A DNA stretch of 14,493 nucleotides from Anaerolineales bacterium. Lineage in GTDB: Bacteria > Chloroflexota > Anaerolineae > Anaerolineales > DRMV01. A program made the translations under genes and the position numbers. The notes under the pieces are model-generated. The model did no database searches, had not been told where the DNA came from, and saw nothing but the letters and a program-made list of their open reading frames with translations. Positions 1 through 14,493 of the stretch are shown here, piece by piece; position 1 is the first letter of the stretch, and each line of letters begins with the position of its first letter. Where the stretch lies: contig WFVP01000002.1 in NCBI GenBank assembly GCA_015491595.1, positions 1 to 14,493 on the forward strand, read 5' to 3'.

Positions 1-1077
1 CTCCCGCAGCACGTGCAACAGGGCCTCGTAATCCGCCGCCTCGGAGACGGCCACCGCGGCCCGGTACAGGTGCTCCGTTTCGGCCAGGGCCTTCTGGGTC
101 TGTTCCGCCAGGTACAGAGTGGAGATGCGGGCGCTGGCCTGGATGGCCAGGGATTGCAGGATACGGATTTCTTCCTCGGGGAAGGCCTGTTCCTCGGGGT
201 ACACGGCGAAGAGGAAGCCCACCATGCTCTCGCCCAGGAAGAGGGGCACCCACAGTGCGGAGCGTCCGCCCAGCATCAACGTAATCTGACGTACCGCGGG
301 ATGGACGTGGGGGTCATGCTCCACATCCCGATGCACCGTCACCACCGGCTCCCAGACGGGCTCTTCCTCCCCCGAAGCCATCATGGTGTAGGGGATGCGT
401 TCGGGAAGGCCGGGGGTCAGGCCAGGCATGGCAGACCACTTGGCCAGGGTACGAATCCATTCCGGCCGCTGGGTGCGGGTCAGGGCAGGCTCGAACCAGC
501 TCAGGGAGATGTAGCGGGCGCCCTGCGCGAGAATGGTGAACTCCCGCAGCGTGTTCAGAATCTCCTGGTACGTGGTGGCCTGATTGATGGCCGTGGTGGC
601 CCGATACAACCGCTCCGTTTCGGCCAGGGCCTTTTGGATGCGCTGGAAGAGCTCGGCGTGCTCCAGGGCCAGGGCCGTCTGTTCCAGAATGTCCTGTACC
701 AGCCGCTCTTCCTCCTCGCCCCACTCCCGCTGGCCCGACGCGATGGCCTCCAGCAGGAAGCGCCGGTCCTGGTACCGGCTGGCCGCGGCCAGCATGGCGG
801 GGACATCCCGGTCGCCCGGAAAGAGCTGGGGGCGCAGGGAGGTCAGGGCCTGCCAGCCAAAGGGCGTCAGGGGGGAACGGGAGGGCACCCACTGTTCCCC
901 TTCCACCCGCAAGCCGAACTCCTCCCCCCGTCCGGAGCGCTCGAGCTCAGGTGCTATCCCGCTTTGGGGATGGTCCATGGGCAGCACAGGAGGCTCGAAT
1001 TCCTCCTGGGGCTGCTCAGGAAGCTGAAGCGCCTCCAACCGTTTCTTCAACTCGTCGAGGGATCGAGAGCGGCTCAT
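1..1077 (-). CDS. Soluble multi-GAF sensory protein, 3' end outside the window
   Basis: The minus-strand frame is open from an ATG at 1077 to the window edge, giving 359 residues with no stop, so the C-terminus (and any output domain) lies off the left edge. No membrane segment is visible. Residues 1-18 form a basic amphipathic start (MSRSRSLDELKKRLEALQ), followed by a Pro/Glu-rich linker to about 65. Residues 70-145 look like a degenerate GAF-like segment (GWQALTSLRPQLF, then a REWGEEEERL...ALALEHAELF end). A coiled-coil linker follows (QKALAETERLYR, 148-159), then a GAF domain at about 160-322 with a conserved-looking ALWVPLFLGESMVGFLF core. At 328-359 the linker and the first helix of another GAF repeat at an exact 180-residue offset. 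The start is fixed by a strong ribosome binding site (AGGAGG at 1087-1092, 9-base spacer) and overlaps the ParA-like gene by 62 bases. The GAF ligand is unknown. It could be the N-terminus of a histidine kinase or hybrid kinase, which this window cannot decide. Confidence 0.85.
   Translation of the reverse strand, partial: MSRSRSLDELKKRLEALQLPEQPQEEFEPPVLPMDHPQSGIAPELERSGRGEEFGLRVEGEQWVPSRSPLTPFGWQALTSLRPQLFPGDRDVPAMLAAASRYQDRRFLLEAIASGQREWGEEEERLVQDILEQTALALEHAELFQRIQKALAETERLYRATTAINQATTYQEILNTLREFTILAQGARYISLSWFEPALTRTQRPEWIRTLAKWSAMPGLTPGLPERIPYTMMASGEEEPVWEPVVTVHRDVEHDPHVHPAVRQITLMLGGRSALWVPLFLGESMVGFLFAVYPEEQAFPEEEIRILQSLAIQASARISTLYLAEQTQKALAETEHLYRAAVAVSEAADYEALLHVLRE
72..93. repeat. 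22-bp direct repeat, copy 1
   Basis: This 22-base string occurs again, identical, at 612-633, exactly 540 bases away. It encodes the KALAETE coiled-coil linker that precedes a GAF domain and marks an internal 180-residue duplication in the soluble multi-GAF protein. Confidence 0.9.
612..633. repeat. 22-bp direct repeat, copy 2
   Basis: This is the second identical copy of the linker-coding repeat at 72-93. Flanking bases (about 541-650 against 1-110) are also similar but diverged, as expected for an older in-frame domain duplication. Confidence 0.9.
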
Positions 1078-1828
1078 GAGCGAACACCTCCTGGGCCAGA
1101 GCTCGATAGGCTTGCGCTGCCCGGGAACGGGGCGCGTAATGGGTCACGGGCAATCCCGCGATGGCGGCTTCGCGAATTTTCGTGTCCACCGGAATGGTGG
1201 TCGAACACAATCCCGGTCCCAGGGTGACCTCCAGCCGGGCCCGAATCCATTTGTGCGCCCGATAGCGGGGCTGGTACATGGTCAGGAAGGCCCGGTAGGC
1301 CAGGGCGGGCTGGAAGCGCAGACGGACCCAGCGGATGGCCTGGAGCAAGTAACGCAACGCATAGGCGGAGAAATATTCGGGTTGCGTGGGAATGAGGACC
1401 TGGTCGGCCATGATGAGGGCGTTCAGCGTCAGCAGGTCCTGGCCGGGGGGCGTGTCCACCAGGACGTAGTCATAGGCCGCCTGGGAAGCCCAGGGCCGGA
1501 AAAAGGAACGCAGCAGGGTGTAACTGTCCTGGCTTTTCAGGTCCCGCTGGGCATGGCGGAGCTGCGGCGTGGCAGCCACCACATCCAGGCCCGGGACCTC
1601 GGTGGACAGAATGGCCTCCTGCAAGGGGAGCCGGTACTGGAGCACGTCCACAACGGAGGCCTGGACTTCTTGCGGGATGTGGCCCAGGGCCAGGGTCAGG
1701 CTCCCCTGGGGGTCCAGGTCCACGGCCAGGACCCGATGACCCCGCTCGACCAGGGCTCCGGCCAATGAGGTCACGCTGGTGGTCTTGGCGACACCACCTT
1801 TCGGATGACTAACCACCACGATGTGCAT
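1016..1828 (-). CDS. ParA/MinD-family (Soj-like) partitioning ATPase
   Basis: This 270-residue protein matches the usual length of small chromosomal or positioning ParA ATPases, which dimerise on ATP and bind DNA or membrane to place cargo. The deviant Walker A is at residues 9-17 (PKGGVAKTT), with signature Lys10 and Walker Lys15. The A' motif is at 37-42 (DLDPQG), and Walker B is at 121-128 (YVLVDTPP, Asp125). The C-terminal segment TTIPVDTKIREAA...GLPVTHY...SRAAQAYRALAQEV follows the Soj pattern. Ala14 replaces the more usual Gly in KGGVGKT, a variant tolerated in the family. The start at 1828 is chosen because GGGGAG (1835-1840) lies 6 bases upstream and the protein then begins directly with the beta-strand before Walker A; the open frame extends further upstream but that part is non-homologous. 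It overlaps the upstream GAF gene by 20 bases and the downstream GAF gene by 62. No ParB and no replication gene is present, so a role in positioning the neighbouring sensory proteins is more likely than chromosome segregation (inference). Confidence 0.93.
   Translation of the reverse strand: MHIVVVSHPKGGVAKTTSVTSLAGALVERGHRVLAVDLDPQGSLTLALGHIPQEVQASVVDVLQYRLPLQEAILSTEVPGLDVVAATPQLRHAQRDLKSQDSYTLLRSFFRPWASQAAYDYVLVDTPPGQDLLTLNALIMADQVLIPTQPEYFSAYALRYLLQAIRWVRLRFQPALAYRAFLTMYQPRYRAHKWIRARLEVTLGPGLCSTTIPVDTKIREAAIAGLPVTHYAPRSRAAQAYRALAQEVFAHEPLSIPRRVEETVGGASAS
1087..1092 (-). promoter_or_regulatory. Strong ribosome binding site inside the ParA-like gene
   Basis: The minus strand reads AGGAGG, 9 bases before the ATG at 1077. 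It lies within the last codons of the ParA-like gene and decides the start of the soluble multi-GAF protein, giving a 62-base overlap between the two frames. Confidence 0.75.
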
Positions 1829-4800
1829 GGTCCACTCCCCTGGACGAAGGCGATTCCCCATCCCCGTCCGTCGGCGCCGGTTCAGCATACATGAGCAATT
1901 GCGCCCGTTCCGCGCCCAGGGCGCGACGCAGTTCTTGCAGGGCGACGCGCACCACTTCCTGCGGGTCGGTGGTGGCCCGCAGGCGGGTGGTAATTTCCCG
2001 GACCAGGCGCTCCCGCTCCGCGCGGCGGGAGAGGGTTTCCAGCAACTGTACCCGATCGTACGCACTGGCCAGCTGGTTCACCATCTGACGGAACAGGACC
2101 AGCTCGTCTTCGGTCAGACGTCGCTCGGGGTCGTCCAGGTCCAGGGCCACACTCCCCACCACTTTACCGCGAATGAGCAAGGGGAACAGGATGAGGGACA
2201 CGGTGCCCCGTTGCTTGAGGATGTCCCGAATGGTCTGGGACAGAATGGGCGACTCCTGTACGTTGTAGATGACCACCACGTCCCGGGTGCGCTTGAGGCG
2301 CTGGATGCTCTCATCCCCCTGGTGCGGGAAGCGCACACCCACCAGGGAGGCACCCGGCGCTTCCGGCGTGCGGGACGCCGTGGCCACCAACGTACTCCAG
2401 GAGTCCGTGGGGTCGAAGAGCGCAATACCGCAGTGCAGGGCGTCGAAGACCACCCGCAGACGCTGGGCCGCTTCCTGGAACAGGTCCTGCAAGCGGGTAT
2501 GCCGCCCCAGGGCCTCGGAGAACTCGTACAACAGGCGGAGCTGTTGCGTGCGCCGGTTCAGGTCCACCACCAGGCGCAGGTTGTAGAACACCGAGGAGAG
2601 CACGTACCCCAGGGTAGTGAAGAGCTCCCGGTCTTGGGGAGTGAAGGCTGCGGCGTAGCGCCGTTGCAGCACAATCGCGCCCAGGGGGATGTCCGCGTAC
2701 CGCAAGGGCACGATGAGCTGGGACGCGTGTTCGTTCCAGAACAGGGACTGGGTCAGGGGATTGGCCTCCAGGTCGATGCTTTCGCCCGTCTCCAGGGCCT
2801 GACCGTAAGGCGAATTGGTCACGGTCAAGGCCTGGGGCACGGTCTCGATGTTGCGGGAGTGGCCGTGCAGGCGCAAGATCTGGGAGCCTTCGTCGTAGCG
2901 ATAGATGGCCAGCGCGGTGTCCGGATACAACCGTTCCAGGGTCTGCACCGCGCGGGTCATGGCCTCTTCCACCGAGTCCGCCCGCATGAGTTCCACGACC
3001 AGGCTGTGAAGTTGTTGGTGCTGGCCCAGGAGCTGCTGGACCAGGTCGAACAGGCGGGCGTTCTGGAGGGCGGAGGCCATCTCTTCCGCGAGGAGCTCCA
3101 GCACCGGCGCGTCCTCTTCCGTGAAGGCCCGGGGGCGGTCCACCGCGATTTCCAGCACGCCCCAGGGGACCTCACCCCCCAGCAGCGGAATCAAGGCCCA
3201 GGTCACGTTGTTCAGCGGTCCGGTCTGCTCATGCAGGGCACGCACACAGGTGTCGATGCACGCCTTCCCGGCCTGGAGGATTTTCTCCATGATGCCCGGC
3301 AGCTCCTCCGGGGGCGCCTGTTCCAGGACTGAGGTCCATTGCGCCTCCCCGGCCACCGGTTCCAGCAGGCCCCGACGCGCGTCCCATCGGTACAGCACCA
3401 CATGGGGCCAGCGGAAGGCCTCCTGGACGTAACGCACCAGGTCGCGCGCCAGGTCCTCTTCGGCCTTAAGCTCCCACAACCGGGCCATCTCGGCCACCCG
3501 GTGCAACCAGGCCAGACGCCGCTGGGAACCCACGAACAACCGGGCGGTTTCCAGGGCCACGGCCAGCCGTTCGGCCAGGGTCTGGGCCAGGTCCCGTTCT
3601 TGCGGGGTCCAGAACTGGTTGTCGGGCTTGTGGAGCTCCAGGGTGGCAATGGTGTGCTCCCGCAGGGTCAAGGGGATGCGCAGCACGTGGGGCGGGGCGC
3701 CGTTGCCGCTGGGAAGCTGGGAGACCTCGTCCACCGGTTGCAAACCGGCCCGGTGGTAACGATAGCCCAGGGGCAGATAGTGCTCCACGAACTGCCGCCA
3801 GGCCTCGGCGGTGAGCAACTGCTGGGCCCGGCGCAGGGTCTCCAGGGCTTCCCGCTGTTGCGCGAACAGGCGGGCGTTGGAGATGGCCACGGCCAGCAGG
3901 TCGGCCACAATCCGCAAGGTGGCGATGTCGTCGGGATGGAAGGCGTTGGGTTGCTTGCTCTGCACGTCCAGGACGCCCAGGATGTCCTCACCCACCTGCA
4001 AGGGAAGGGCCATCTCCGAACGGGTCTCGGGGAACTCGGGATTGGGATAGTAGAAGGGGTCTTCCGTCACATCCTCCACCACCCGAACCTGCCCCGTGTG
4101 GGCCACGAAACCCACGATACCCTGTTCGCCCACCCGAAGGCGGAAGCCCCGTTGAATCAGGCGCTTGCCGCCCTCGGTGCTGGCCGCCCGCATCACCGCC
4201 CACTGGCCAGTCTCATCCAGCAGGAAGATGCCCACCTGGTAGAACCCGAACCGCTGGGAGAGCAGGTCCGCGGCCTTTTGCAGAATCACGTCCAGGTCCC
4301 GCTCCATGGTGATGATACGCCCGATATCCGCGGCGGCGTGGGTCTGGGCCATCCGCCGCTGCAGCGCGTAGGTGCGCTCCTGAACCTGTTGCTCCAGGAA
4401 GCGCCGGGAACGGTCCACCTCCTCGGCCATGGCGTTGAAGACCTTGGCCAGGAGGCCCATTTCGTCCGGCCGGTCCTCCGGAAAGCGGAACTGCCAGTTC
4501 CCCTGGGTGTAGGCCTGCAGCCCCTGGATGAAGTTGAGCAGCGGTCGAATCACCATGCGCTGCTGCACCAAGGTAGTCTGCAGCACCGTGAGCAACATGG
4601 CCACCAGGCCCAAACCCGCGGGAATCAGCAGCAGGTGGGTCAGGCTCACCCGGGCCTGGGCCAGGGCCTGTTGCTGCTGGTAAAGGCTCATGCTGAGCAC
4701 CAGGTTCGCCCGTGTGCGCAACCGGGCTTCCAGACGCTCCATGTGGTCCACCAGCCGTTCCACCTCGTCCCACCGCCCGTCCTCAGCGAGGTGGATGAGG

Positions 4801-5270
4801 GTCTCCGTATTTTGCTCCACGCTCCGTAGCAGGAAGAGTACCTCGGTCATCCGCTCCCGCAAGGGACTGGGCTCCGTCTGGCTGTGGACCCAATCGTCGA
4901 TTTCGTTCATCGTCTCCCGCAGATTGCGCAATTGCAAACGCAACGTCGTGGTCAACCGGTAGGTGTCCCGCTGGGGCATGTGGCGGTAGGTGTACAGCAG
5001 AATTTCCTCCACGTGGGGATAGGCCCGCAGCACCAGAATCACCGGCGGGATGGTCTCGAAGGCCGTGGCAATCTGGGCCCGCAAGCGGAAGGCAAAACCC
5101 GTCACCAGCGCGCCCGTGCCTGCCAGGATGAACACCAGCACCACCATGTAGAGCTGGGCCATGCGGCGCAGGGAGCGCCGGGGCCGCAGGGGCACCTGCA
5201 AGGGGGTGCGGGCTTCTTCCCGCTCCGGGGATGCCAGGGACGTGCCTTGTTCACGCAGTTCCTCAACCAT
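1809..5270 (-). CDS. Membrane HAMP / multi-GAF sensor without kinase domain
   Basis: This 1153-residue protein has a basic N-terminus (RRSLRR) before TM1 at about 39-61 and a helical extracytoplasmic region at about 62-210, resembling a four-helix-bundle sensor. TM2 is at about 211-230, a HAMP domain at about 231-290 (IRPL...DEMGLLAKVFNAMAEEV), and a coiled coil reaches about 315. GAF 1 is at about 312-473 (VEDVTEDPFYYPNPEFPETR, ending AISNARLF). A degenerate segment spans about 487-579 (AEAWRQF ... ALETARLF). Three more GAFs lie at about 585-741, 750-900 and 908-1078, then a half-GAF at about 1083-1130 and a disordered tail. No H-box, HATPase, GGDEF, EAL, PP2C or MCP signalling motif is visible. 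The start lies 2 bases after the stop of the preceding gene, with GAG/GAGG at suitable spacing. It probably passes conformational signals across the membrane to a partner kinase or scaffold. The GAF ligands cannot be told from sequence; I saw no obvious bilin-binding cysteine motif. Confidence 0.92.
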   Translation of the reverse strand: MVEELREQGTSLASPEREEARTPLQVPLRPRRSLRRMAQLYMVVLVFILAGTGALVTGFAFRLRAQIATAFETIPPVILVLRAYPHVEEILLYTYRHMPQRDTYRLTTTLRLQLRNLRETMNEIDDWVHSQTEPSPLRERMTEVLFLLRSVEQNTETLIHLAEDGRWDEVERLVDHMERLEARLRTRANLVLSMSLYQQQQALAQARVSLTHLLLIPAGLGLVAMLLTVLQTTLVQQRMVIRPLLNFIQGLQAYTQGNWQFRFPEDRPDEMGLLAKVFNAMAEEVDRSRRFLEQQVQERTYALQRRMAQTHAAADIGRIITMERDLDVILQKAADLLSQRFGFYQVGIFLLDETGQWAVMRAASTEGGKRLIQRGFRLRVGEQGIVGFVAHTGQVRVVEDVTEDPFYYPNPEFPETRSEMALPLQVGEDILGVLDVQSKQPNAFHPDDIATLRIVADLLAVAISNARLFAQQREALETLRRAQQLLTAEAWRQFVEHYLPLGYRYHRAGLQPVDEVSQLPSGNGAPPHVLRIPLTLREHTIATLELHKPDNQFWTPQERDLAQTLAERLAVALETARLFVGSQRRLAWLHRVAEMARLWELKAEEDLARDLVRYVQEAFRWPHVVLYRWDARRGLLEPVAGEAQWTSVLEQAPPEELPGIMEKILQAGKACIDTCVRALHEQTGPLNNVTWALIPLLGGEVPWGVLEIAVDRPRAFTEEDAPVLELLAEEMASALQNARLFDLVQQLLGQHQQLHSLVVELMRADSVEEAMTRAVQTLERLYPDTALAIYRYDEGSQILRLHGHSRNIETVPQALTVTNSPYGQALETGESIDLEANPLTQSLFWNEHASQLIVPLRYADIPLGAIVLQRRYAAAFTPQDRELFTTLGYVLSSVFYNLRLVVDLNRRTQQLRLLYEFSEALGRHTRLQDLFQEAAQRLRVVFDALHCGIALFDPTDSWSTLVATASRTPEAPGASLVGVRFPHQGDESIQRLKRTRDVVVIYNVQESPILSQTIRDILKQRGTVSLILFPLLIRGKVVGSVALDLDDPERRLTEDELVLFRQMVNQLASAYDRVQLLETLSRRAERERLVREITTRLRATTDPQEVVRVALQELRRALGAERAQLLMYAEPAPTDGDGESPSSRGVDHAHRGG

Positions 5271-5272
5271 GG

Positions 5273-6931
5273 CTAAGCCTCACTCCCGTCCGTCGAAGGC
5301 GTTTGGCCGTTTCCAGAGGTCGTGGTGAAGTACAGGCGGGCTTCCTCGGCCTGGAAGATACGGGCCAGATAACGCAACGCTTCCTCCATGAGAGGCTCCA
5401 GCTCCATGTGACCACCCAGTTGCTCCACGAAACCGCGACGAATCTCCTCCATGCGGGCGAAGGAACGGCTCTGCTGGAAGAGCAACGCGGTCTGGAAGGC
5501 CGACAGGTAGTGCTGCAACGCGCTCTGCAGCAGGGTGCGCTCTTCTTCCGTCCAGGGCTGCTCCCGCTCCACTTCCACTTCGCCCACCACCACGCCGTGG
5601 AGCAAAAGGGGCACCCGCAGGCGCGCCCCTTCCTCGTCGGACACTTCCGTCCCCAGGCGGACTTCCAGCGTCTCCTGGGGCAGGGCCCCGCTCCAGGCCT
5701 CCACGGCCAGCTGGCGCTGCAGGCTCTCCAGCTGTTGCAGGGTCCGTTGCAACTGCTGGAAGAGTCGGGCGTTGGAAAGGGCAATGGCCAGCCGGTCGGC
5801 CAGCATCTGAATCACCTGAATGGTCTCCTCGTCAAAGGCATAAGGCTCCTCAAACTGCACCGTCATGGCCCCCAGGACCTCGCCCCGGGCCATGAGGGGG
5901 AAGGCACCCTCCGAGCGGGTCAGCGGCAAATAGGGGTTGGGAAAGTGGGTGGGGTCCTCCTTGACGTCTTGGGCCACCCGGGGCTGGCGATGGGCCACGG
6001 CCCAGGCAATCATGGACCCGCCGCCCAGGGGCAGACGATACCCTTCCTCAACCATTCGGCGCCCCGCCTCGCCGCTGCCCGCGGCCAGCTGGGCGAACTC
6101 ACGACCGGGGTCCAGGAGGAACACGCCCGTGTAGTACAGGCCAAAGGACTCGTGCACCCGATCCACGAATTCCCAAAGCAAGCGGTCTGGGGCCAGGATG
6201 TTGCTGATGGCTTGGGAAATTTCAGCGACGGTTCGAATTTGGTGGACCCGTTTTTCCAGCAACTTCCCCTGCTTTTCCAGACGTTCTCGTTCCCGTTCCA
6301 GGATTTCAGTGAGTTGATGGCTCTCCTCCAAGGAGGTCTCCAAGCGACGTCGATACACGGTAAAAACCATTTGGCTGGCCACCACCACGATGACGAAAGC
6401 GGTAAGACTCAAACCCCAAGGCTCCTGCTCTTTCAAGGGGAGACCTGGAGGAAAGACATCAAACGTCGTGATGTAGAGAAGCGTGCTGCCTGTTATCAGA
6501 GCTAAGACCATGTTGAACAGGGACTGATACGTGGGGAGGAAAATCGCGCCCAGAAAAGACGCGGAGAGTAGCCACAAGATGGATTGTACAGGATTGTCGA
6601 ACACAACACCGGTCAAACCACTCAGGCCATACAACAAGATCAAACCCATCCAAACTCGTACCGAGTAGGGAAATCCAGGAAAAGCGCGGCTCCAAATCAG
6701 CAAGAGCAGGTAGAAAATGGCCCCCACATACGCCCAGAGAACAGGTGACCCTAACCATTGCGTGGCCAGATAAACCAAGAAGGGGATGCCGAAGAGGGCC
6801 ATAATGATGTACAGTTGGTGTAAGAGGCGTTCCTGGTAATGCACCACAAACGTACGACTGGAAAGGCCCTCTTCCTGCTCTTCTAAGGATAAGGAGGGGG
6901 GTTGTGGAGAGGGGAATTGCACTCCTGTCAT
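5273..6931 (-). CDS. Six-helix membrane GAF-domain sensor without kinase domain
   Basis: The protein has 552 residues. After a Pro/Ser/Glu-rich cytoplasmic N-terminus (1-36), six hydrophobic helices lie at about 37-57, 62-80, 92-110, 113-133, 137-156 and 172-193. This is an integral-membrane input module of the MASE or 7TM kind that I cannot assign to a named family. A charged coiled coil (about 195-230; LERERERLEKQGKLLEKR) leads to a complete GAF domain at about 232-395 (QDVKEDPTHFPNPYLPLTRS, ending ALSNARLF). A degenerate GAF-like segment follows at about 408-487 (VEAWSG ... PWTEEERTLL ... TALLF), then a terminal half-GAF at about 494-540 (LARIFQAEEARLYF). There is no kinase or other enzymatic output domain. 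The ATG start overlaps the preceding stop as ATGA, with GGAG 7 bases upstream, which indicates translational coupling. The membrane part is clearly less GC-rich than the GAF part (about 47-55% in two 60-base samples). Function: signal input, partner unknown. Confidence 0.92.
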   Translation of the reverse strand: MTGVQFPSPQPPSLSLEEQEEGLSSRTFVVHYQERLLHQLYIIMALFGIPFLVYLATQWLGSPVLWAYVGAIFYLLLLIWSRAFPGFPYSVRVWMGLILLYGLSGLTGVVFDNPVQSILWLLSASFLGAIFLPTYQSLFNMVLALITGSTLLYITTFDVFPPGLPLKEQEPWGLSLTAFVIVVVASQMVFTVYRRRLETSLEESHQLTEILERERERLEKQGKLLEKRVHQIRTVAEISQAISNILAPDRLLWEFVDRVHESFGLYYTGVFLLDPGREFAQLAAGSGEAGRRMVEEGYRLPLGGGSMIAWAVAHRQPRVAQDVKEDPTHFPNPYLPLTRSEGAFPLMARGEVLGAMTVQFEEPYAFDEETIQVIQMLADRLAIALSNARLFQQLQRTLQQLESLQRQLAVEAWSGALPQETLEVRLGTEVSDEEGARLRVPLLLHGVVVGEVEVEREQPWTEEERTLLQSALQHYLSAFQTALLFQQSRSFARMEEIRRGFVEQLGGHMELEPLMEEALRYLARIFQAEEARLYFTTTSGNGQTPSTDGSEA

Positions 6932-9900
6932 AACCCTTCTCCTGGAGATTCATCTCGTAATGCTTCTCGGATCCGCATCGTCGTGGTCTCACCCACCGTA
7001 GGCATGTGTAACCGGAAGACCACTTGACGGGCCTGGAAAATACGCAGGAGTTCGCCCGCGATTTCCTGGGTAAGCACCGAGGGGTCCCACAGGGAGACCA
7101 GATGGGTCCCCAGAGCGTGAATCCACTCTTCCCGCTGCAGGCGATGCTCGTAGTGCTGGATGCGCATCAAGTAGTGCATGGCCGGAGCCAGACGCTCCGT
7201 GAGAACCGAAAGGCGGTACACGAGGGCCCGGTCGAACCGATGGACCTGGTGCATGTCCCGCAGGCCCCACACGCCCAAGACCCGGCCGCCGACCACGAAG
7301 GGCAGTCCGACCCAGGACTGCGGGAAGGAGGACTGGGCCAGGTGGGAAGGCTCGCCCAGGCGTGTGAACATCTCCCGGGGTTCGGAGAAGAGGAGGGGGT
7401 GCTGCTCCTCCACCACCTTCTGCACCAGGGCCTGCTCCGCGGGAGACAACACGAAGTGGTACTGCTCCTGGCCCTCCAGGAAGACGAAGCTCTGTCCGAT
7501 GCGCCCCTCCTCGTCCACGAAGGCGAAGAAGTAATCGCCTTCTTCGGTGAACAGCTGGCGCAAGGAGCGCACCAGCGCGGTTAGGGCCTGGCCCAGGGTA
7601 GGCGCCTCCGTGCTCACCACGAAGAATTCCATCACCGTCTGCCAGAGGCGCACGTGTTCCTGCACGTCGGTGCGTTCCAGCATCTGGGCCAGGATGTGCA
7701 TCACCAGGGAGAGGGCGCTGAGGATTTCCTGAGGATACTCCCCGGGCTCTTCTAGGCCCAGCAGGAGCACCGCTTCCAGGCGCTGCTGCGTCCAGACCGG
7801 CAGCGTGACCACGCCCTTCCAGTTGCGCTCCTGGGCCAGCTCTCGCACCTCCCGGGGCAGGCGCTGTACCGCGCGCAGGGCCTCCAGGTCAGGCTCCAAC
7901 AGCCAGCGCTGCTCCCGACTAATGGGGAACAGGGTGCGCAGGGTGCGTCCTGCCAGGGTAGCCGGATACAACGGCTGCCACTGGTTCTCTGTTTCGGGGA
8001 CCCGGACCAGGAGGATGGACTGAGGGAAGTAGCGCTCCAGCAAGCGGGCCACCGCGAAAAAGATGCCCATCAAATCCGCGGACGCGGCCACGGATTGCAT
8101 CAGCCGGGTGGTGACCTCCATGAGCTGGTGCAGGTACATGCGCACCCAGGCCAGATGGGCAAAGGCCACCGCGCTGCTCACCGTGGGCGCCAAGTCCTGC
8201 ACCTGGTTCTGGAAAAGCTCGTCAAAGGTCTGGTCCTGGGTGCTGTAGAATAGCAGAGCACCAATGGGTCGGTTCTGCTGAAACAGGGGCTGAATCCATA
8301 CCGCCTTGTAGGGCTCGGGAATTTGTCCTCGATGGGTTTCCTGGGTATAGAGGGCCGGGCGGCGCTGGCGCAGCACCTCCTGCACCCAGTTTCGCTCAGC
8401 CGGCGTGCGCAGGGGCGGGGTTGTTTCCTCTTCGTCGTCGTCCGAAGCCGCCACGACCCGCCAGTCCACGGTGTGGCGGTCATCGTTCCACAACACCAGC
8501 ACGGGATGCACCGCCTGGGACAGGAAGGGCCGCAGTCCCTCCAGCATGCGCTGCAAGAAGCTGCGGAAGGACGTCGCGTCCTCGGGCGGAGCCTCGGCCA
8601 GCCAGTCCAGGAACAGGCGCACCTGGTACGTACGGCGTCGCACTTCATCCTCCAGGGAACGGTACAGCCGTTCCAGGGAGGCCGCCATGTGGTTGAACAC
8701 CTGGGCCAGGAGCGCGAACTCGTCCTGCCCCTTGACGGGCACGCGCACGTCCCACAAGCCCTCGGCAAAGGCCTGCACGCTCTCGGTCACTTCCCGCACC
8801 GGGCGGGCCACCCGGCGGCTGAACCACCAGCCTGCCAGGAGCATTATCCCCAGGAAAGCCAGGGCTTGCAGTTGGACATAACGGGCAATAGGCTTCGTCA
8901 AAGGCCCCAGGACTTCTGGGAGAGAAAACACCACCCCCATCTTAGCGTTTTCACCCACAAACGGCGCAGGAAAGGTCACCCAAATCCGTCCCCCGTCTTT
9001 CGGCTGGTATACCACTTGATGGCGTTGGAAATCCCGCACGTAAAGGGTTTTGGGGATATTCGCGGGGCGCTCAATTTCCATATGCACGGGAATTTGACGC
9101 CAGATAAACCAGGTTAGGGCCGACCACGAGTTGATTTTTGGGGGAGTCTGGATGACGGCCTCATACACCTCGTCGGGGGACAAGTAGCCCTTCTGTTCTT
9201 CCGCGGGAACCCCGAAAGCCTGTCCATTGGCTGTGATCAGGAAGGGCATACCTTGCAGAGAGAAGAAGCTTTGCATCCACGCGACCAGGGAATCAGGGGA
9301 CACCAAGCCAATGACCCACCATGCATCTCCGTGGTTATCTACAACAGGTTGGATGATACCCATCCAGGCCCAGTAGTAGCCAAAGGCAGGCTCGCTTCCC
9401 CAAATCAAGATTCCGGGGCGCTCGGCATCTTGATACGCATTCAGAGCCTCCATCAACTGCGGTGTCAAGACCCGCTGCTCCAGACGGCTCTGAGAACTGA
9501 TCCAAATGCGGCCCGTGGTATCTATAATGACGACATCCTGTACCCATAAAGGCACGTCCTGTTGCACGCCCAATTCATCCATCAGGCGATCCAGGAGCAG
9601 CGCTCGTACCGGTTCAAAACGCAGAGGGTCTTCCCGGACCTGACGCAAACGGCTCAGGTCCCGCAGAAAAACAGGGTTTTGCGTGACTTGTTGGAGGAGG
9701 TCAGCCTGGATACTGACGAGGTTGTCAAAACTGTAAAAGAGGGTTTCGGTCAAGAGTTCAGTACGTCGAATGAGACTTTGCACAATGCCGGTGTAAGAAG
9801 AGAAGTACAGGAAGACATGCAGGGCAATGATGGCAGGTCCCAAAATAAGCACGAGGAAGAGAAGGGTGCGGAATTGGTAACCTCGGTACCAGGGCACCGT

Positions 9901-9948
9901 TAATTGCCGCGGGGCTTCACCTGAAGGCGAGGACGTCATAACTCCCAT
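6928..9948 (-). CDS. dCache-like / HAMP / triple-GAF membrane sensor without kinase domain
   Basis: This 1006-residue protein has TM1 at about 27-50 and a large extracytoplasmic domain (about 51-357) with two Cache-like halves. The first contains VQDVVIIDTTGRIWISSQ and a GIIQPVVDNHGDAWWVIGLV strand pair; the second contains GMPFLITANGQAFG and RIWVTFPAPFVGE. TM2 is at about 358-376 and HAMP at about 376-430 (ARPVREV ... DEFALLAQVFNHMAASLERL), followed by a coiled coil. Three GAF or GAF-like domains occupy about 440-600, 605-760 and 765-925, and a half-GAF lies at about 935-985 (LLRIFQARQVVFRL). Family knowledge suggests the dCache part binds a small extracellular ligand. No output enzyme or H-box is seen. 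The ATG at 9948 has GGGAG 7 bases upstream and overlaps the receiver gene by 13 bases. The ATG at 9939 (codon 4) would instead make an ATGA overlap, and either could be used. The extracytoplasmic region is less GC-rich than the cytoplasmic half. Confidence 0.92.
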   Translation of the reverse strand: MGVMTSSPSGEAPRQLTVPWYRGYQFRTLLFLVLILGPAIIALHVFLYFSSYTGIVQSLIRRTELLTETLFYSFDNLVSIQADLLQQVTQNPVFLRDLSRLRQVREDPLRFEPVRALLLDRLMDELGVQQDVPLWVQDVVIIDTTGRIWISSQSRLEQRVLTPQLMEALNAYQDAERPGILIWGSEPAFGYYWAWMGIIQPVVDNHGDAWWVIGLVSPDSLVAWMQSFFSLQGMPFLITANGQAFGVPAEEQKGYLSPDEVYEAVIQTPPKINSWSALTWFIWRQIPVHMEIERPANIPKTLYVRDFQRHQVVYQPKDGGRIWVTFPAPFVGENAKMGVVFSLPEVLGPLTKPIARYVQLQALAFLGIMLLAGWWFSRRVARPVREVTESVQAFAEGLWDVRVPVKGQDEFALLAQVFNHMAASLERLYRSLEDEVRRRTYQVRLFLDWLAEAPPEDATSFRSFLQRMLEGLRPFLSQAVHPVLVLWNDDRHTVDWRVVAASDDDEEETTPPLRTPAERNWVQEVLRQRRPALYTQETHRGQIPEPYKAVWIQPLFQQNRPIGALLFYSTQDQTFDELFQNQVQDLAPTVSSAVAFAHLAWVRMYLHQLMEVTTRLMQSVAASADLMGIFFAVARLLERYFPQSILLVRVPETENQWQPLYPATLAGRTLRTLFPISREQRWLLEPDLEALRAVQRLPREVRELAQERNWKGVVTLPVWTQQRLEAVLLLGLEEPGEYPQEILSALSLVMHILAQMLERTDVQEHVRLWQTVMEFFVVSTEAPTLGQALTALVRSLRQLFTEEGDYFFAFVDEEGRIGQSFVFLEGQEQYHFVLSPAEQALVQKVVEEQHPLLFSEPREMFTRLGEPSHLAQSSFPQSWVGLPFVVGGRVLGVWGLRDMHQVHRFDRALVYRLSVLTERLAPAMHYLMRIQHYEHRLQREEWIHALGTHLVSLWDPSVLTQEIAGELLRIFQARQVVFRLHMPTVGETTTMRIREALRDESPGEGL

Positions 9949-10409
9949 ACTTCCTCTCCCGCCAAGATGCGCCGAATTTGGTCCGGGAAGCGGTCAGGGT
10001 CCAGGGGCTTGCCGATGAAGCCGTCGAATCCGGCCTCCTTGGCCTTGCGCATTTGCTCCACGCTGGCCTCTGCGGTGACGGCGACGATGGGGACGTCCTT
10101 CCAGCGCTCGGAAGCCCGCAGTTTCTTCAGGGCTTCATAACCGTCCTCATACGGCAGACGCAGGTCCATCAGGATGAGGTCGACCTTGGGCAGGGAATCG
10201 GCGAACTCCACCACTTCGTATCCCGAGGTCTTCCACTTGGTCTCGATGCCGATGTAGCTGAGCATCCGGGCGATGAGGACGAAATTGGCCACGTTGTCCT
10301 CCACCACCAGCACCGTCGCCCCTTCCGGCCGCACCGGAGCGCGCTTACGTCGTCCTTCTTGGGAGGAAGTGGCACGCGATTCAGCGGACAAACGGTGTTC
10401 ATCGCTCAT
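9936..10409 (-). CDS. Stand-alone CheY-like response regulator receiver (second of pair)
   Basis: This 157-residue single-domain receiver has a basic, probably disordered N-terminal extension (about 1-30, including GRRKRAPVRPEG). The CheY fold covers about 31-155, with acidic pair Glu37/Asp38 in VLVVEDN, phospho-acceptor Asp82 in LILMDLRLP, switch Thr112 in VAVTAEAS and conserved Lys134 in FIGKPLDP. There is no DNA-binding, enzymatic or HPt domain, so it must act by protein contact, as a phosphate sink, or as a relay. The open frame extends upstream to 10538, but that part is antisense-like and unrelated to receivers; the ATG at 10409, preceded by GGAGAAGGG and a 5-base spacer, gives the expected protein. 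The start overlaps the stop of the upstream receiver by 11 bases, and the end overlaps the sensor gene, so co-translation with both is likely. The cognate kinase is not in the window. Confidence 0.93.
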   Translation of the reverse strand: MSDEHRLSAESRATSSQEGRRKRAPVRPEGATVLVVEDNVANFVLIARMLSYIGIETKWKTSGYEVVEFADSLPKVDLILMDLRLPYEDGYEALKKLRASERWKDVPIVAVTAEASVEQMRKAKEAGFDGFIGKPLDPDRFPDQIRRILAGEEVWEL

Positions 10410-10791
10410 GGGAACCCTTCTCCACAGGCCGGAGGAATTCTCGGATGAGCTTGGGGAACGCGTCCACATCGATGGGTTTGGGAATATACCCATCGCATCC
10501 GACCTGATAACACCGGACGGGGGTGTCCCGCAAGACATCCGCGGTCAGGGCCACAATGGGCACGTGTTCCAGGTCCTTCCGCTGTCGCAACTGGCGCACA
10601 ATGGTGAATCCATCCACGCCGGGAAGGTGCAAGTCCACCAGAATCAGGTCCGGGTGATGCTCTTCCAGGAGGGCCATGAGTTCCTGCGCGTTTTCGGCCT
10701 CGAAGAGTTCATAGCCTTCCGCCACCAAAATCCGGCGGATGAGCAACCGATTCTCCGGGTTGTCTTCCACGTACAAGATTTTCGGGGCCAT
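10399..10791 (-). CDS. Stand-alone CheY-like response regulator receiver (first gene of the operon)
   Basis: This 130-residue protein is essentially only a receiver domain. It shows acidic residues Glu9/Asp10 (ILYVEDNPENR), phospho-acceptor Asp53 in LILVDLHLPGVDG, switch Thr83 in IVALTADV, and Lys105 in GYIPKPIDVDAFP. VEDNPENR and PKPID resemble the DivK/CheY-like receivers often attached to or near multi-sensor hybrid kinases (family knowledge). It lacks any output domain. The ATG at 10791 is preceded by GGGAG with a 6-base spacer, and a candidate extended -10 promoter lies about 40 bases upstream, making it the promoter-proximal gene of the cluster. Its 3' end overlaps the second receiver gene by 11 bases. 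The two receivers share the fold but are clearly divergent in sequence, so they are not a recent duplication. Confidence 0.95.
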   Translation of the reverse strand: MAPKILYVEDNPENRLLIRRILVAEGYELFEAENAQELMALLEEHHPDLILVDLHLPGVDGFTIVRQLRQRKDLEHVPIVALTADVLRDTPVRCYQVGCDGYIPKPIDVDAFPKLIREFLRPVEKGSHER

Positions 10792-10821
10792 GCCTCACTC
10801 CCGGATGAGACCACGTCAAGG

Positions 10822-10841
10822 TGTGCTGTTAATATAGCACA
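10822..10841. promoter_or_regulatory. Perfect dyad overlapping the -10, candidate operator
   Basis: TGTGCT (10822-10827) and AGCACA (10836-10841) form a perfect 6-bp inverted repeat with an 8-base AT-rich spacer. The dyad covers the -10 element and the expected start of transcription, where a dimeric repressor would block polymerase. The half-sites are short, so chance is possible. No regulator gene with a DNA-binding domain lies in the window to pair with it. Confidence 0.35.
10831..10839 (-). promoter_or_regulatory. Candidate extended -10 promoter for the sensory operon
   Basis: On the minus strand this reads TGCTATATT, that is TG-N-TATATT, a good sigma-70-type extended -10. Transcription would start near 10824 and leave a leader of roughly 30 bases before the receiver ATG at 10791. 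No convincing -35 hexamer is visible 16-18 bases upstream, which is common for extended -10 promoters. It lies downstream of the rpoB terminator, so the cluster is likely its own transcription unit. Confidence 0.55.
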
Positions 10842-10904
10842 TTCGCCAGGGACGCGCAGGGCCTTTTTAAGGAACCTCGCACCCGGGGAGATGAGGATTG
10901 CATG

Positions 10905-10944
10905 AGAAAAAGCAACAGGCCGGGGACGACCACCGTCCCCGGCC
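10905..10944 (-). terminator. Intrinsic terminator of rpoB
   Basis: A perfect 11-bp GC-rich inverted repeat (10918-10928 with 10934-10944) encloses a 5-base loop and is followed, reading leftward, by TGTTGC and five T residues (10907-10911). It starts 24 bases after the rpoB stop codon. This is a strong rho-independent terminator for leftward transcription and separates rpoB from the sensory operon. Confidence 0.85.
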
Positions 10945-10967
10945 CGGGCCAGGCGTGAGAGAAGGGG

Positions 10968-13900
10968 TCAGGAGGCCTGCGGTTTGGGCTTGGACGCCTC
11001 TTCCAGACCCTCCAGCAGGCCGGTGCGGAGCTTGGGAATGCGCGGTCGAGCCTCCTCCTTGCCGAAGGTGACCACGCCCTCGGGCGTCTCGGCCTCCACC
11101 GCGATGCCCAGGCTCTGGAGTTCTTTGACCAGCACCTTGAAGGAAGCCGGGAGCTTGGGCGGGTCGATGGGCTTGCCCTTGACGATGGCCTCGTAAGTGC
11201 GATTGCGGCCCTCGACGTCGTCGGACTTGATGGTCAGCATCTCCTGCAAGGTGTAAGCCGCGCCGTAGGCCTCCAGAGCCCACACTTCCATCTCGCCGAA
11301 CCGCTGACCGCCGAACTGGGCCTTGCCACCCAACGGCTGCTGAGTGATGAGGCTGTAAGGCCCAGTAGACCGGGCGTGGACCTTGTCCTCCACCAGGTGA
11401 TGGAGTTTCATAACCGTCATCACACCCACCGTCACCGGTCGGTCATAGGGTTCTCCCGTCATCCCGTCCCGCAGGATTTGCTTACCCAAGATGGGTATAG
11501 GCCGCCCCGTTTCCAGCATGACCTGGGAGGCCTTCTGGCGAATGGCTTCTTCGTCGTCCGGCAGGTCCGAGGTATCGTAGCCCAAGGACTCCATCCACAA
11601 GCGCAGGCCCACTTTGATGGCCTCCTGAGCCCGGCGCTCCCGCTCCGCGATGGACAGTTCCTCGTCCTCAAAGTGCAGGATGTCGTCTGGATTGTAGCCC
11701 TTTTCCTTCAACCATTCCCGCAGAGCGCTGCGGCGGGCGTAGACCTCGTCCGTGGCCAGGCGGTAGAGGTCGTAACCCCGGTCGTTCAACCACTGCTCCA
11801 TGTACAGGGCCCGCACGTCGTCTTCATTCCGCAGGAGTTCCGGTTCCAGACCTTTCTGTTCCTTCAGCCAGGCCCAGGCTCGTTCGGTGACTTCCCGCCA
11901 GGCTTGATCGATCAACCAGGCCCTGGCCAGTTCGGCCTCGATTTCCTTCTCACTGGGACCGTCAAAGACGGGGGTCTTGGCCCGAAAGCCCAGTCGGGAC
12001 GCGGCCCATCCCAAATGGGCTTCCAGAATCTGACCGATGTTCATCCGGCCGGGAACACCCAAAGGATTGAGGATGATGTCCACCGGCGTCCCGTCCTCCA
12101 GGAAGGGCATATCTTCCACCGGGACCACCTTGGAAACCACACCTTTGTTCCCGTGGCGGCCGGCCATCTTGTCACCCGCGGTAATCTTTCGGCGCTGGGC
12201 CACGAAGACCCGCACCATCTTCTCCACGCCGGGCGGCAGGTCCCGGGTCTCCTCTCGGGAGAAGACCTGCACACCCACCACCGTTCCCCACTCACCATGG
12301 GGCATACGGAGGGAGGTGTCCCGCACATCCCGGGACTTTTCGCCGAAAATGGCCCGGGCAGCCGCTCTTCCGGGGTGAGTTCCTTCTCGCCCTTGGGCGT
12401 GACCTTACCCACCAGGATATCCCCGGGGCCCACCTGGGCACCGATGCGGATGATGCCGTTCTCGTCCAGGTTGCGAAGCTGGTCTTCACCCACGTTAGGG
12501 ATATCCCGGGTGATTTCTTCCGGACCCAAGCGGGTATCCCGGGCCTCCACTTCGTACTTCTCGATGTGGATGGAGGTGTACTTGTCCTCCTGTACCAAGC
12601 GCTCGGAGATGAGCACGGCGTCCTCAAAGTTGCCGCCCTCCCAGGACACAAAGGCCACCACCACGTTCTGGCCCAGGGCCAACTCCCCGTCTTCCGTTGC
12701 GCTCACGTCGGCCAACACGTCGCCCTTCCTCACCCGTTGGCCCTTGGAGACGATGGGGCGCTGGTCCAGGCAGGTGCTCTGGTTGGAGCGCTCGAAACGG
12801 CGCAGGGGGTACACGTCCGTGTCGCCGTCGTCCGTGCGCACCACAATGCGCTCGCCCGTCACGGAGATGACTTCACCATCCCGTCGGGCCAGCACCACCG
12901 TACCCGAATCCTGGGCGGCCTTCTTCTCGATACCCGTGGCCACGATGGGCGCGTCGGGCTTGAGCAAGGGCACGGCCTGATTCTGCATGTTGGACCCCAT
13001 CAGGGCCCGCGTGGGGTCGTCGTGTTCCAGGAAGGGAATCAGGGACGCGCTCACGCCCACGATTTGGTGGGGCGCGACGTCTACGTAGGACACCTGCTCC
13101 GGTCGGGCGAACAGAAAGGAGCCCTTGTACCGACAGATGAGGTTTCGGGATTCGAACTCATCGTGCTCGTTGATGGGCGCGTTGGACTGGGCAATGTAGT
13201 AGCGGTCATCCTGATCGGCCGTGAGATAGTCCACATCCTTGGAAATCCAGGGCACGATGGACACCGGCTTGTCCTTCAGGGCCTTCGCAATCTTCTTGGC
13301 CAGTTTTTCATCCACCCGCACCCCGGCTTCGGCAAGGACCTTACCCGACTTGGGGTCCACCACATCTTCCCGCAATTTGCGTCCGACCAGACGGGGGTCG
13401 TTGGCCGGCAGTTCTTTGTACACCCGACGGTAGGGCGTCTCGATGAATCCATAGGGGTTGATGCGAGCATAGGTGGTCAACCGGCCGATGAGGCCGATGT
13501 TGGGACCTTCTGGCGTCTCGATGGGACAGATACGCGCGTAGTGGGAGTGGTGCACGTCCCGCACGTCGAAGCCTGCTCGTTCCCGGCGCAAACCACCCGG
13601 CCCCAGGGCCGAGAGGGTGCGCTTGTGGCGCAATTCCGAAAGGGGGTTGGTCTGGTCCATGAACTGGGAAAGCTGGCTGGAGGCGAAGAACTCCCGCAAA
13701 GCCGCGCTGATGGGTCGGATGTTGATGAGGGAAGCAGGCGTGACCTTTTCCTGGTCGCCCCGGATGGACATCCGCTCCTTTATGATGCGCTCCATGCGCC
13801 GCAGACCCACCCGCAGGCGGGCATAGACCAATTCACCCACCGTGCGCACCCGGCGGTTGCCCAGGTGGTCCATATCGTCGGGCGCTTCCAGGCCGTTGTT

Positions 13901-14493
13901 GATGGCGATGAGCCGCCGCACCATGGCCACGATGTCCCATTTGCTGATGGTGCGGTATTCCATGGGCACCCGGTCGTGCAGGTCGAACTTCTGGTTCATT
14001 TTGTAACGACCCACCCGGGCCAGGTCGAAGTAGCGCGGGTCAAAGAGCTGGTTCTGAAGGAACTCACGCGCGTTGTCCAGGGTCGCGGGTTCGCCGGGGC
14101 GCAGGCGCTTGTAGAGCTCAATCAAAGCAGCCTCGGCCAGGGAAAGGCCATTGAGTTCCAGTTCCGGCTCCTGCTCGATGGTGTTGCGAATAAAGGGCCG
14201 TTCGGGGTCCACGTCCACGTCCTGGAACAGGGCCAGGAGCTCTTCATCGGTGCCCGTCTTGAGGGGGGATTCGGGAAGGCCGTCATCTACCGCGGCCAGG
14301 GCCCTCAGGAACAGGGTCACAGGCACCGAGCGACGGCGGTTGAAGCGCAGGATGATGTGGTCACTGCGCTTGGTCTCCAGTTCCAGCCACACCCCCCGGT
14401 CAGGGATGAGCTTGGCCGTGGCTAGGGGACGCCCCACCGAAGCGTCATAGGGCGCGTCAAAGTAGGCACCGGGGGAACGGATGAGCTGGGAGA
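10968..14493 (-). CDS. rpoB: DNA-directed RNA polymerase subunit beta (5'-partial, with a frameshift)
   Basis: This is the catalytic beta subunit of RNA polymerase. About 1174 residues are encoded here if the frameshift is repaired. The first 100 or so residues lie off the right edge, and the frame is already open at 14493, reading [11 protein letters not shown], a beta protrusion/lobe motif. Visible landmarks in order are the rifampicin pocket [20 protein letters not shown], then [29 protein letters not shown], the active-site lysine segment [15 protein letters not shown], and [18 protein letters not shown] with [15 protein letters not shown] near the end. The reading frame breaks near 12353-12359: TPEERL is followed in the upstream frame by nonsense up to a stop at 12041, while the next frame resumes RAIFGEK-like sequence. 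Restoring one T in CTGC(T)CCGGGCC gives the expected EERLLRAIF. A roughly 135-residue insert lies between VFDG and [10 protein letters not shown] terminator follows the stop, and no rpoC is adjacent. Confidence 0.96.
11475..11957 (-). other. Lineage-specific helical insert in RpoB
   Basis: Between the TPVFDG motif and the LRDGMTGEP motif, E. coli RpoB has about 26 residues, while this protein has about 160. The extra segment is rich in Trp, Glu, Lys and Arg and looks helical. It contains four similar W-[LM] motifs ([50 protein letters not shown]). The insert stays in frame and keeps the GC content of its surroundings, so it is part of the gene rather than a mobile element. Confidence 0.75.
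12351..12361 (-). other. Apparent one-base deletion (frameshift) in rpoB
   Basis: The minus strand reads CTGCCCGGGCC here. Family-wide conservation expects codons for Leu-Leu-Arg-Ala, and CTG CTC CGG GCC differs from the observed string by a single T. Both flanking frames code for perfectly conserved RpoB, so the break is exact and recent. In an essential gene this most likely reflects a sequencing or assembly error. The site is not a canonical slippery heptamer. Confidence 0.85.

Follow-up and report, generated by a model that had tools for sequence, protein, structure and literature searches.

Here, we describe a sensory operon at the start of a contig from an Anaerolineales bacterium of the phylum Chloroflexota (assembly GCA_015491595.1, contig WFVP01000002.1, positions 1 to 14,493; this whole stretch of 14,493 nucleotides is called the window). 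The window is contig C2 of genome G000, which is 81% complete and consists of 450 contigs (C, G, L and f are our labels for contigs, genomes, loci and families). Seven minus-strand genes encode two lone receivers, three membrane sensors, a ParA-type ATPase and the first part of a hybrid histidine kinase. The operon is truncated by the contig end, and its remainder on a second contig encodes the kinase core, an enzyme of the PALP family fused to a receiver, and an EamA transporter. The operon appears to be widely conserved and seemingly undescribed, and we propose, with somewhat more confidence than doubt, that it encodes one ParA-positioned, multi-input phosphorelay.

Gene content and the missing end of the operon

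The seven genes of the original prediction, which was made from the sequence alone, are all present, and their spacings are exactly as given there, i.e., overlaps of 11 (10399-10409), 13 (9936-9948) and 4 bases (6928-6931), a gap of 2 bases (5271-5272), and overlaps of 20 (1809-1828) and 62 bases (1016-1077). The features, in the order of transcription, are:

10916..10946, minus strand: terminator-like hairpin after rpoB that bounds the operon (14 pairs, then T-rich)
10399..10791, minus strand: lone receiver 1, CheY/DivK-like (PF00072, E 2.2e-27)
9936..10409, minus strand: lone receiver 2 (PF00072, E 2.3e-21, longer frame scanned)
6928..9948, minus strand: sensor 1, membrane input domain, HAMP and GAF domains, no kinase (Pfam)
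5273..6931, minus strand: sensor 2, six-helix (MASE11-like) membrane part and GAF domains, no kinase (Pfam)
1809..5270, minus strand: sensor 3, HAMP and five GAF units, no kinase (Pfam, AlphaFold2)
1890..2027, minus strand: C-terminal tail of sensor 3, residues 1082-1127 (match to our TAIL profile)
1016..1828, minus strand: ParA-type ATPase with KGGVAKTT (AAA_31, E 1.5e-40)
1..1077, minus strand: start of the hybrid histidine kinase, truncated at the contig end and continued on C316 (L199)
1024..1077, minus strand: ParB-like N-terminal peptide of the kinase, MSRSRSLDELKKRLEALQ, a variant missing the strict motif R[LI]xx[LIF]F
646..723, minus strand: GAF end part near the kinase head, residues 119-144 (weak, 4.1 bits; clearer in relatives)

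The last gene had been read as a soluble GAF protein. It is instead the N-terminus of a hybrid histidine kinase, because the end of contig C316 of the same genome (5817-6261) overlaps positions 1-445 of the window (98.4% over 445 bases, 7 mismatches) and carries the HisKA (E 1.3e-21) and HATPase (E 1.2e-30) domains of L199 that complete it. The kinase's own receiver matches weakly (27.1 bits, cut-off 30.2), and it is followed on C316 by the PALP enzyme fused to a receiver and then by the EamA transporter. The kinase on C316 and in relatives rules out an array without a kinase. A complete, ordinary hybrid kinase operon, named in the original prediction as a possible refutation, is borne out by half: a hybrid kinase is present, the operon around it is not an ordinary one. 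The components of a hybrid two-component phosphorelay, a kinase with HisKA and HATPase and receivers with an intact phospho-acceptor, were both found. Direct reading of lone receiver 1 shows the acidic pair, the aspartate in DLHLP, the threonine and the lysine; lone receiver 2 has a likely ATG start at 10409, which gives the 11-base overlap.

As predicted, the three complete sensors lack a kinase (no HisKA or HATPase match at E<=0.1, Pfam). The description of sensor 1 as dCache-like was not confirmed, with no dCache match in Pfam. AlphaFold2 models its outer part as a long helix with an alpha/beta domain (about residues 25-246) and a remainder of low confidence, and the Foldseek matches listed include only GAF- and phytochrome-type structures; one cluster sensor of genome G029 does match dCache_1 (57.1 bits). 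The C-terminus of sensor 1 is modeled as two helices (residues 907-952 and 956-970), followed by low confidence. Sensor 2, whose MASE11 match is weak (23.9 bits, below the cut-off of 27.3; Pfam), has orthologues across the order.

The hairpin (10946-10916) is strong and sets the cluster apart from rpoB. The single candidate promoter proposed for the operon was not recovered, with no sigma-70-like match in 10700-11100. The rpoB gene itself (10968-14491, minus strand) falls into two overlapping frames (10968-12326 and 12041-14491), probably owing to a single frameshift from an assembly or sequencing error, and rpoC was found on a separate contig (C347).

Conservation of the operon and of the PALP-receiver enzyme

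Three samples underlie the comparison. For sensor 2 and ParA, 61 genomes from the genus, family and order of the window were searched; the fused enzyme was sought in named genomes, where it yielded at least 80 loci; and the phylum was surveyed by an even draw of 400 genomes (fused enzyme at E<=1e-120, cluster ParA at E<=1e-50). The labels of the at least 80 named loci are Chloroflexota, Anaerolineae or genera that we take to belong there, except L159. That record is labeled Blastopirellula marina and has a typical cluster; it is possibly a mislabeled metagenome bin.

The gene order recurs in many families of the order and is conserved far beyond chance; a lack of such conservation in relatives, which the original prediction named as a refutation, was not observed. 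Among the named loci, the PALP enzyme is fused to a receiver in 80 of 80, the kinase lies directly upstream of it in all 77 with enough sequence, and EamA lies directly downstream in 73 of 74 (exception L163). ParA is encoded within about 10 kb upstream in 58 of the 64 loci with enough sequence. In the phylum survey, 42 of 400 genomes encode the fused enzyme; 31 of these 42 also have the cluster ParA, as do 28 of 29 within the order, and it was found in none of the 20 enzyme-negative genomes of the same order or class that were searched (the other 338 were left out). The earlier statement that no output enzyme is visible thus falls, given the HisKA/HATPase domains on C316 and the invariant position of the kinase before the fused enzyme. 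That interpretation stands in so far as the unit is sensory, conserved and made of several proteins, among them ParA and membrane sensors that lack a kinase.

All 91 PALP-receivers compared keep the lysine for pyridoxal phosphate (PLP), four cysteines, the phospho-accepting aspartate and the T/S of the receiver (91/91 each), and 90 of 91 keep its lysine. The receiver is C-terminal, and its phospho-acceptor is intact.

The smallest form of the cluster consists of receivers, kinase and fused enzyme, with neither sensors nor ParA (L149, L221, L222), and sensors and ParA look like additions to this core. At the other extreme, large clusters (L080, L081, L085, L088) alternate sensors with periplasmic binding proteins of the NMT1/THI5-like and branched-chain amino-acid type, which suggests that binding proteins feed the sensors there. 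In related genomes, loci L233, L234 and L236 encode a second paralogue of the PALP-receiver, accompanied by a kinase of its own, by tailed sensors and by an additional lone PALP enzyme; ParA occurs only once among them (L236). A further response regulator and a receiver-kinase gene, convergent to EamA, are encoded at L089 (13478-15858, minus strand) and at many other loci.

ParA, its next gene and truncated GAF parts

PDB relatives of the window ParA are ParA/Soj proteins, and it has orthologues in other clusters. The Walker A motif reads KGGVAKTT in 83 of 88 cluster ParAs, KGGIAKTT in one and KGGVSKTT in two (L111, L237), and is not visible in the stretch read of the remaining two (L091, L137). 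Cluster ParA thus has the deviant Walker A motif with the signature lysine of the ParA/MinD type.

The gene after parA was compared at 82 loci with a ParA above 250 bits, including one pair with identical heads (L086/L089). Its product starts with a basic peptide, e.g., MPKKPKIDKRLDKLFQDI or MSKKPLHSRLDALFEQL, and contains on average 4.9 lysines and arginines in its first 16 residues, as fits the basic N-terminus of an activator. The strict motif occurs within the first 36 residues in 71 of 82; the other 11, with the window among them, are mostly variant-like. The background is low, at 0.1% of shuffled N-termini, 2 of 3018 stretches from other parts of these proteins and 1 of 178 sensor N-termini. 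Chromosomal ParB, encoded elsewhere than the cluster, starts with MSRKRKGLGRGLSALLPQ in G000 and MARKRSGLGKGLDALIPG in another example, with L, K/R, L, A and L at the same intervals. At L137, L160 and L231, where parA is followed by a gene other than that of the kinase, this gene has the motif and the kinase is without it, as are 9 of 11 further kinases that lack a neighbouring ParA (L108, L132, L149, L167, L168, L221, L225, L229, L230).

Published work reports that ParA/MinD ATPases are commonly activated through a short N-terminus of positive charge, and that such charge is abundant at the N-termini of ParB, MinE, ParG and PomX and of TlpT and McdB, which are suggested activators (PMC7993993). 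Because the motif resembles the N-termini of ParB and other activators, we infer that the kinase is an activator and cargo adaptor of ParA, a role predicted from sequence. A ParB DNA-binding domain was absent from the seven after-ParA proteins scanned with Pfam (window, L069, L078, L082, L086, L087, L231). The predicted absence of chemotaxis genes held, with no methyl-accepting chemotaxis protein (MCP) signalling domain in the window cluster genes (Pfam). Genome-wide, MCPsignal had no match over the cut-off in 12 of 14 cluster genomes, including the genome of the window; a chemotaxis role of ParA is therefore unlikely there, and we rejected it on this ground.

Sensors and kinases share a second peculiarity, namely truncated GAF parts. 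The tail that follows the last GAF domain of the sensors has a median length of 65 residues and the consensus eetqrRAeRER.vsEITsKIrstnDpq.iLqTAaeEL.raLgasev.iql. It aligns to positions 3-42 of the 153-position GAF profile (profile-profile; E 6.2e-5, at a probability of only 65). Our TAIL profile, for which a length filter of 45-140 retained 167 of 195 tails and 165 non-redundant ones were used, matches 190 of 196 cluster sensors, a set that does not contain sensor 1 of the window, and none of 22 control GAF proteins, which come from 20 chosen regions of one complete genome (G028). The first count is partly by construction, as the profile was made from these tails; the GAF-profile alignment, the 0/22 in controls, the AlphaFold2 model and matches to the start of 73 internal GAF domains are independent of it. 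The sensors without a match are L070_S0, L077_S1, L078_S1, L125_S0, L162_S0 and sensor 2 of the window. For sensor 3, AlphaFold2 predicts helix (1054-1098), helix (1103-1118) and strand (1122-1127), followed by disorder, with a predicted local distance difference test score below 50. The tail is well conserved, with 10 of 73 invariant columns in 45 residues compared to 2.8 expected (rank 13 among 1109 such stretches). Isolated sensor tails yielded a Pfam GAF match in one of five cases (E 0.017).

The complementary part is found in the proteins after ParA. Kinase heads from relatives match the end of GAF in four of four cases (Pfam), and in 80 of 82 after-ParA proteins the first GAF match, at any score down to 4.1 bits, begins at profile position 80 or later, compared to 1 of 22 controls and 14 of 196 sensors. 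With a floor of 8 bits, 77 of 82 lead with an end part and 3 with a full GAF. Half of the leading end parts (40/80) start at residues 51-127. The stretch before them consists to at least 50% of P, S, T, E, K, Q, D, G or N, and there is little room in it for a GAF start. The non-kinase after-ParA proteins L137 and L160 have both tail and end part, like a chain link; that of L231 has a tail and begins with a full GAF. Start and end parts together would make a GAF domain without its middle, and their pairing is conceivable. The two are joined directly in cis in only one protein.

Internal end parts in cluster sensors and kinases lie at a median of 69 residues past the previous GAF match. In the internal end part of sensor 3 (residues 502-547), two short strands precede the usual last strands (AlphaFold2).

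Proposed mechanism, alternatives and known systems

In the phosphorelay that we propose, kinase-less membrane sensors with varied inputs and similar GAF-rich cytoplasmic parts would signal via their conserved C-terminal tails, which would report to the one GAF-rich hybrid histidine kinase of the same operon. The protein encoded after parA, usually this kinase, would activate the ParA ATPase by its basic, ParB-like N-terminal peptide, and the assembly of kinase and sensors would be the cargo that ParA spreads over, or moves along, the nucleoid. Phosphoryl groups would pass from the kinase to its own receivers, to the two lone receivers and to the receiver of the PLP enzyme, the activity or placement of which may thereby be switched. 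An amino-acid-like product of the enzyme may then exit through the EamA transporter. A more specific version, which we put forward tentatively and regard as rather doubtful, is a plug-and-socket array in which the GAF start of each interchangeable sensor and the GAF end of the shared kinase form one GAF-like domain in trans, the kinase itself links a dedicated ParA to its cargo in the manner of ParB, and the PLP enzyme acts as a response regulator. Split-GAF docking would be its boldest part.

Several observations weigh against these proposals. ParA is missing upstream of the fused enzyme in 6 of 64 loci (L108, L132, L149, L157, L167, L168) and from 11 of the 42 fused-enzyme genomes (families f35 and f46 among them), and it is therefore not essential to the core. 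The window kinase carries a variant of the motif, KKRLEALQ rather than a peptide ending in LF, and the kinases of L157 and L233 carry the motif or a similar one with no ParA seen adjacent. In the window, the TAIL profile matches sensor 3, not sensor 2, the tail of which is recognized by eye only. The kinases L108, L229, L230 and L231 begin with a full GAF though their sensors have tails; each contains at least one internal GAF end part. Inside cluster proteins, end parts without a start are frequent (195 internal cases); they also occur in 4 of 50 control GAF hits, so that a leading end part is not unique to the kinase.

In an unlikely alternative, this is a hybrid-kinase operon of the ordinary kind, with sensors that are degenerate remnants or act independently and signal elsewhere, and with ParA as a co-transcribed regulator, like FleN or BcsQ, that positions nothing. 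The complete hybrid kinase fits this alternative, as do the clusters lacking both sensors and ParA (L149, L221, L222). However, few stretches of sensor 3 are as well conserved as its tail, which is not decaying, and the ParB-like peptide goes with the position after parA, also where the gene there does not encode the kinase. We judge it equally unlikely that the operon is a signal-making system, in which the PLP enzyme, under the control of its receiver, produces a small signal derived from an amino acid, EamA exports it and some of the sensors detect it. The adjacency of enzyme and EamA (73/74) and the periplasmic binding proteins of amino-acid and NMT1 types in large clusters would suit such a system; the sensor inputs, however, are diverse.

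Control of threonine synthesis, with the PALP-receiver as the cell's own threonine synthase switched by phosphorylation, is improbable. Threonine synthases are the best NCBIfam matches of three PALP-receivers and the closest PDB chains over the enzyme part, and some relatives are named threonine synthase in their sources. Yet a separate thrC match over the TIGR00260 cut-off (167.1 bits) is present in 21 of 22 genomes, whereas cluster-type PALP-receiver frames, found in 17 of the 22, score 133-161 bits; copies of the second paralogue on G041:C59 (172.8) and G032:C108 (167.2) pass the cut-off. Canonical threonine synthases keep S155, N157, R160 and N188 (Thermus numbering; 16/16 each), residues that we take to bind the substrate phosphate. 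In PALP-receivers these positions are replaced, with G155 in 91/91, N157 in 2/91, R160 in 0/91 and G188 in 91/91. The separate thrC and the replaced residues led us to reject a housekeeping threonine synthase. Finally, gene overlap might have produced the ParB-like peptide as an artefact, if the C-terminus of ParA constrained its codons in another frame. This explanation is hardly credible and was rejected: 62 of 82 after-ParA genes do start 32 or 35 bases inside parA, but the motif or a variant is kept across start offsets from -77 to -11, and in the common cases its end lies beyond the parA stop.

If the proposed phosphorelay is correct, a sensory architecture that was not found in the literature searched is in use in a large group of Chloroflexota, many of the loci being from cultured Anaerolineae or from environmental genomes. 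In this architecture, modular sensors would plug into one kinase, ParA would position that kinase, and phosphorylation would switch a metabolic enzyme. Plug-and-socket docking, if true, would add to fused sensor kinases and chemoreceptor arrays a third means by which a single kinase receives many inputs. Questions that become accessible are whether signalling kinases can serve as ParA cargo adaptors, whether a signal can be transmitted by truncated domains that complement one another in trans, and which product the PLP enzyme forms under the control of its receiver. The N-terminal peptide would also provide a sequence handle for ParA cargo adaptors in other orphan parA operons. No description of the fused PALP-receiver, the cluster or the split GAF joint was found in the literature searched, which excluded most subscription journals.

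Among known systems, the operon resembles the chemosensory arrays with PpfA/TlpT in Rhodobacter sphaeroides and ParC/ParP in Vibrio in combining many kinase-less receptors with one kinase and a ParA-type ATPase. TlpT, the suggested partner of PpfA, has a basic N-terminal extension, as after-ParA proteins do (PMC7993993, PMC9178275). Unlike in these arrays, no MCP domain was found in the cluster proteins scanned, the kinase is of the HisKA type and not CheA, and the outputs differ. With ParABS, McdAB and PomXYZ the operon shares a ParA with deviant Walker A motif and a next gene whose product has a basic, activator-like N-terminus; it differs in that the seven after-ParA proteins lack a ParB DNA-binding domain and in its presumed cargo, the kinase-sensor assembly. 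In RetS/LadS/GacS networks, several sensors also converge on one kinase; the cluster sensors, in contrast, have no kinase domain and share a truncated-GAF tail. Like response regulators with enzymatic output, the PALP-receiver joins an intact receiver to an enzyme, but its receiver is C-terminal and a PALP output was not found in the literature searched. It shares fold family, PLP lysine and sequence similarity over the enzyme part with ThrC, and differs in its changed substrate-site positions, its fused receiver and the canonical enzyme that occurs beside it. Three features look new: the ParB-like peptide encoded after parA, the truncated GAF parts, and the PALP-receiver without the site residues of threonine synthase.

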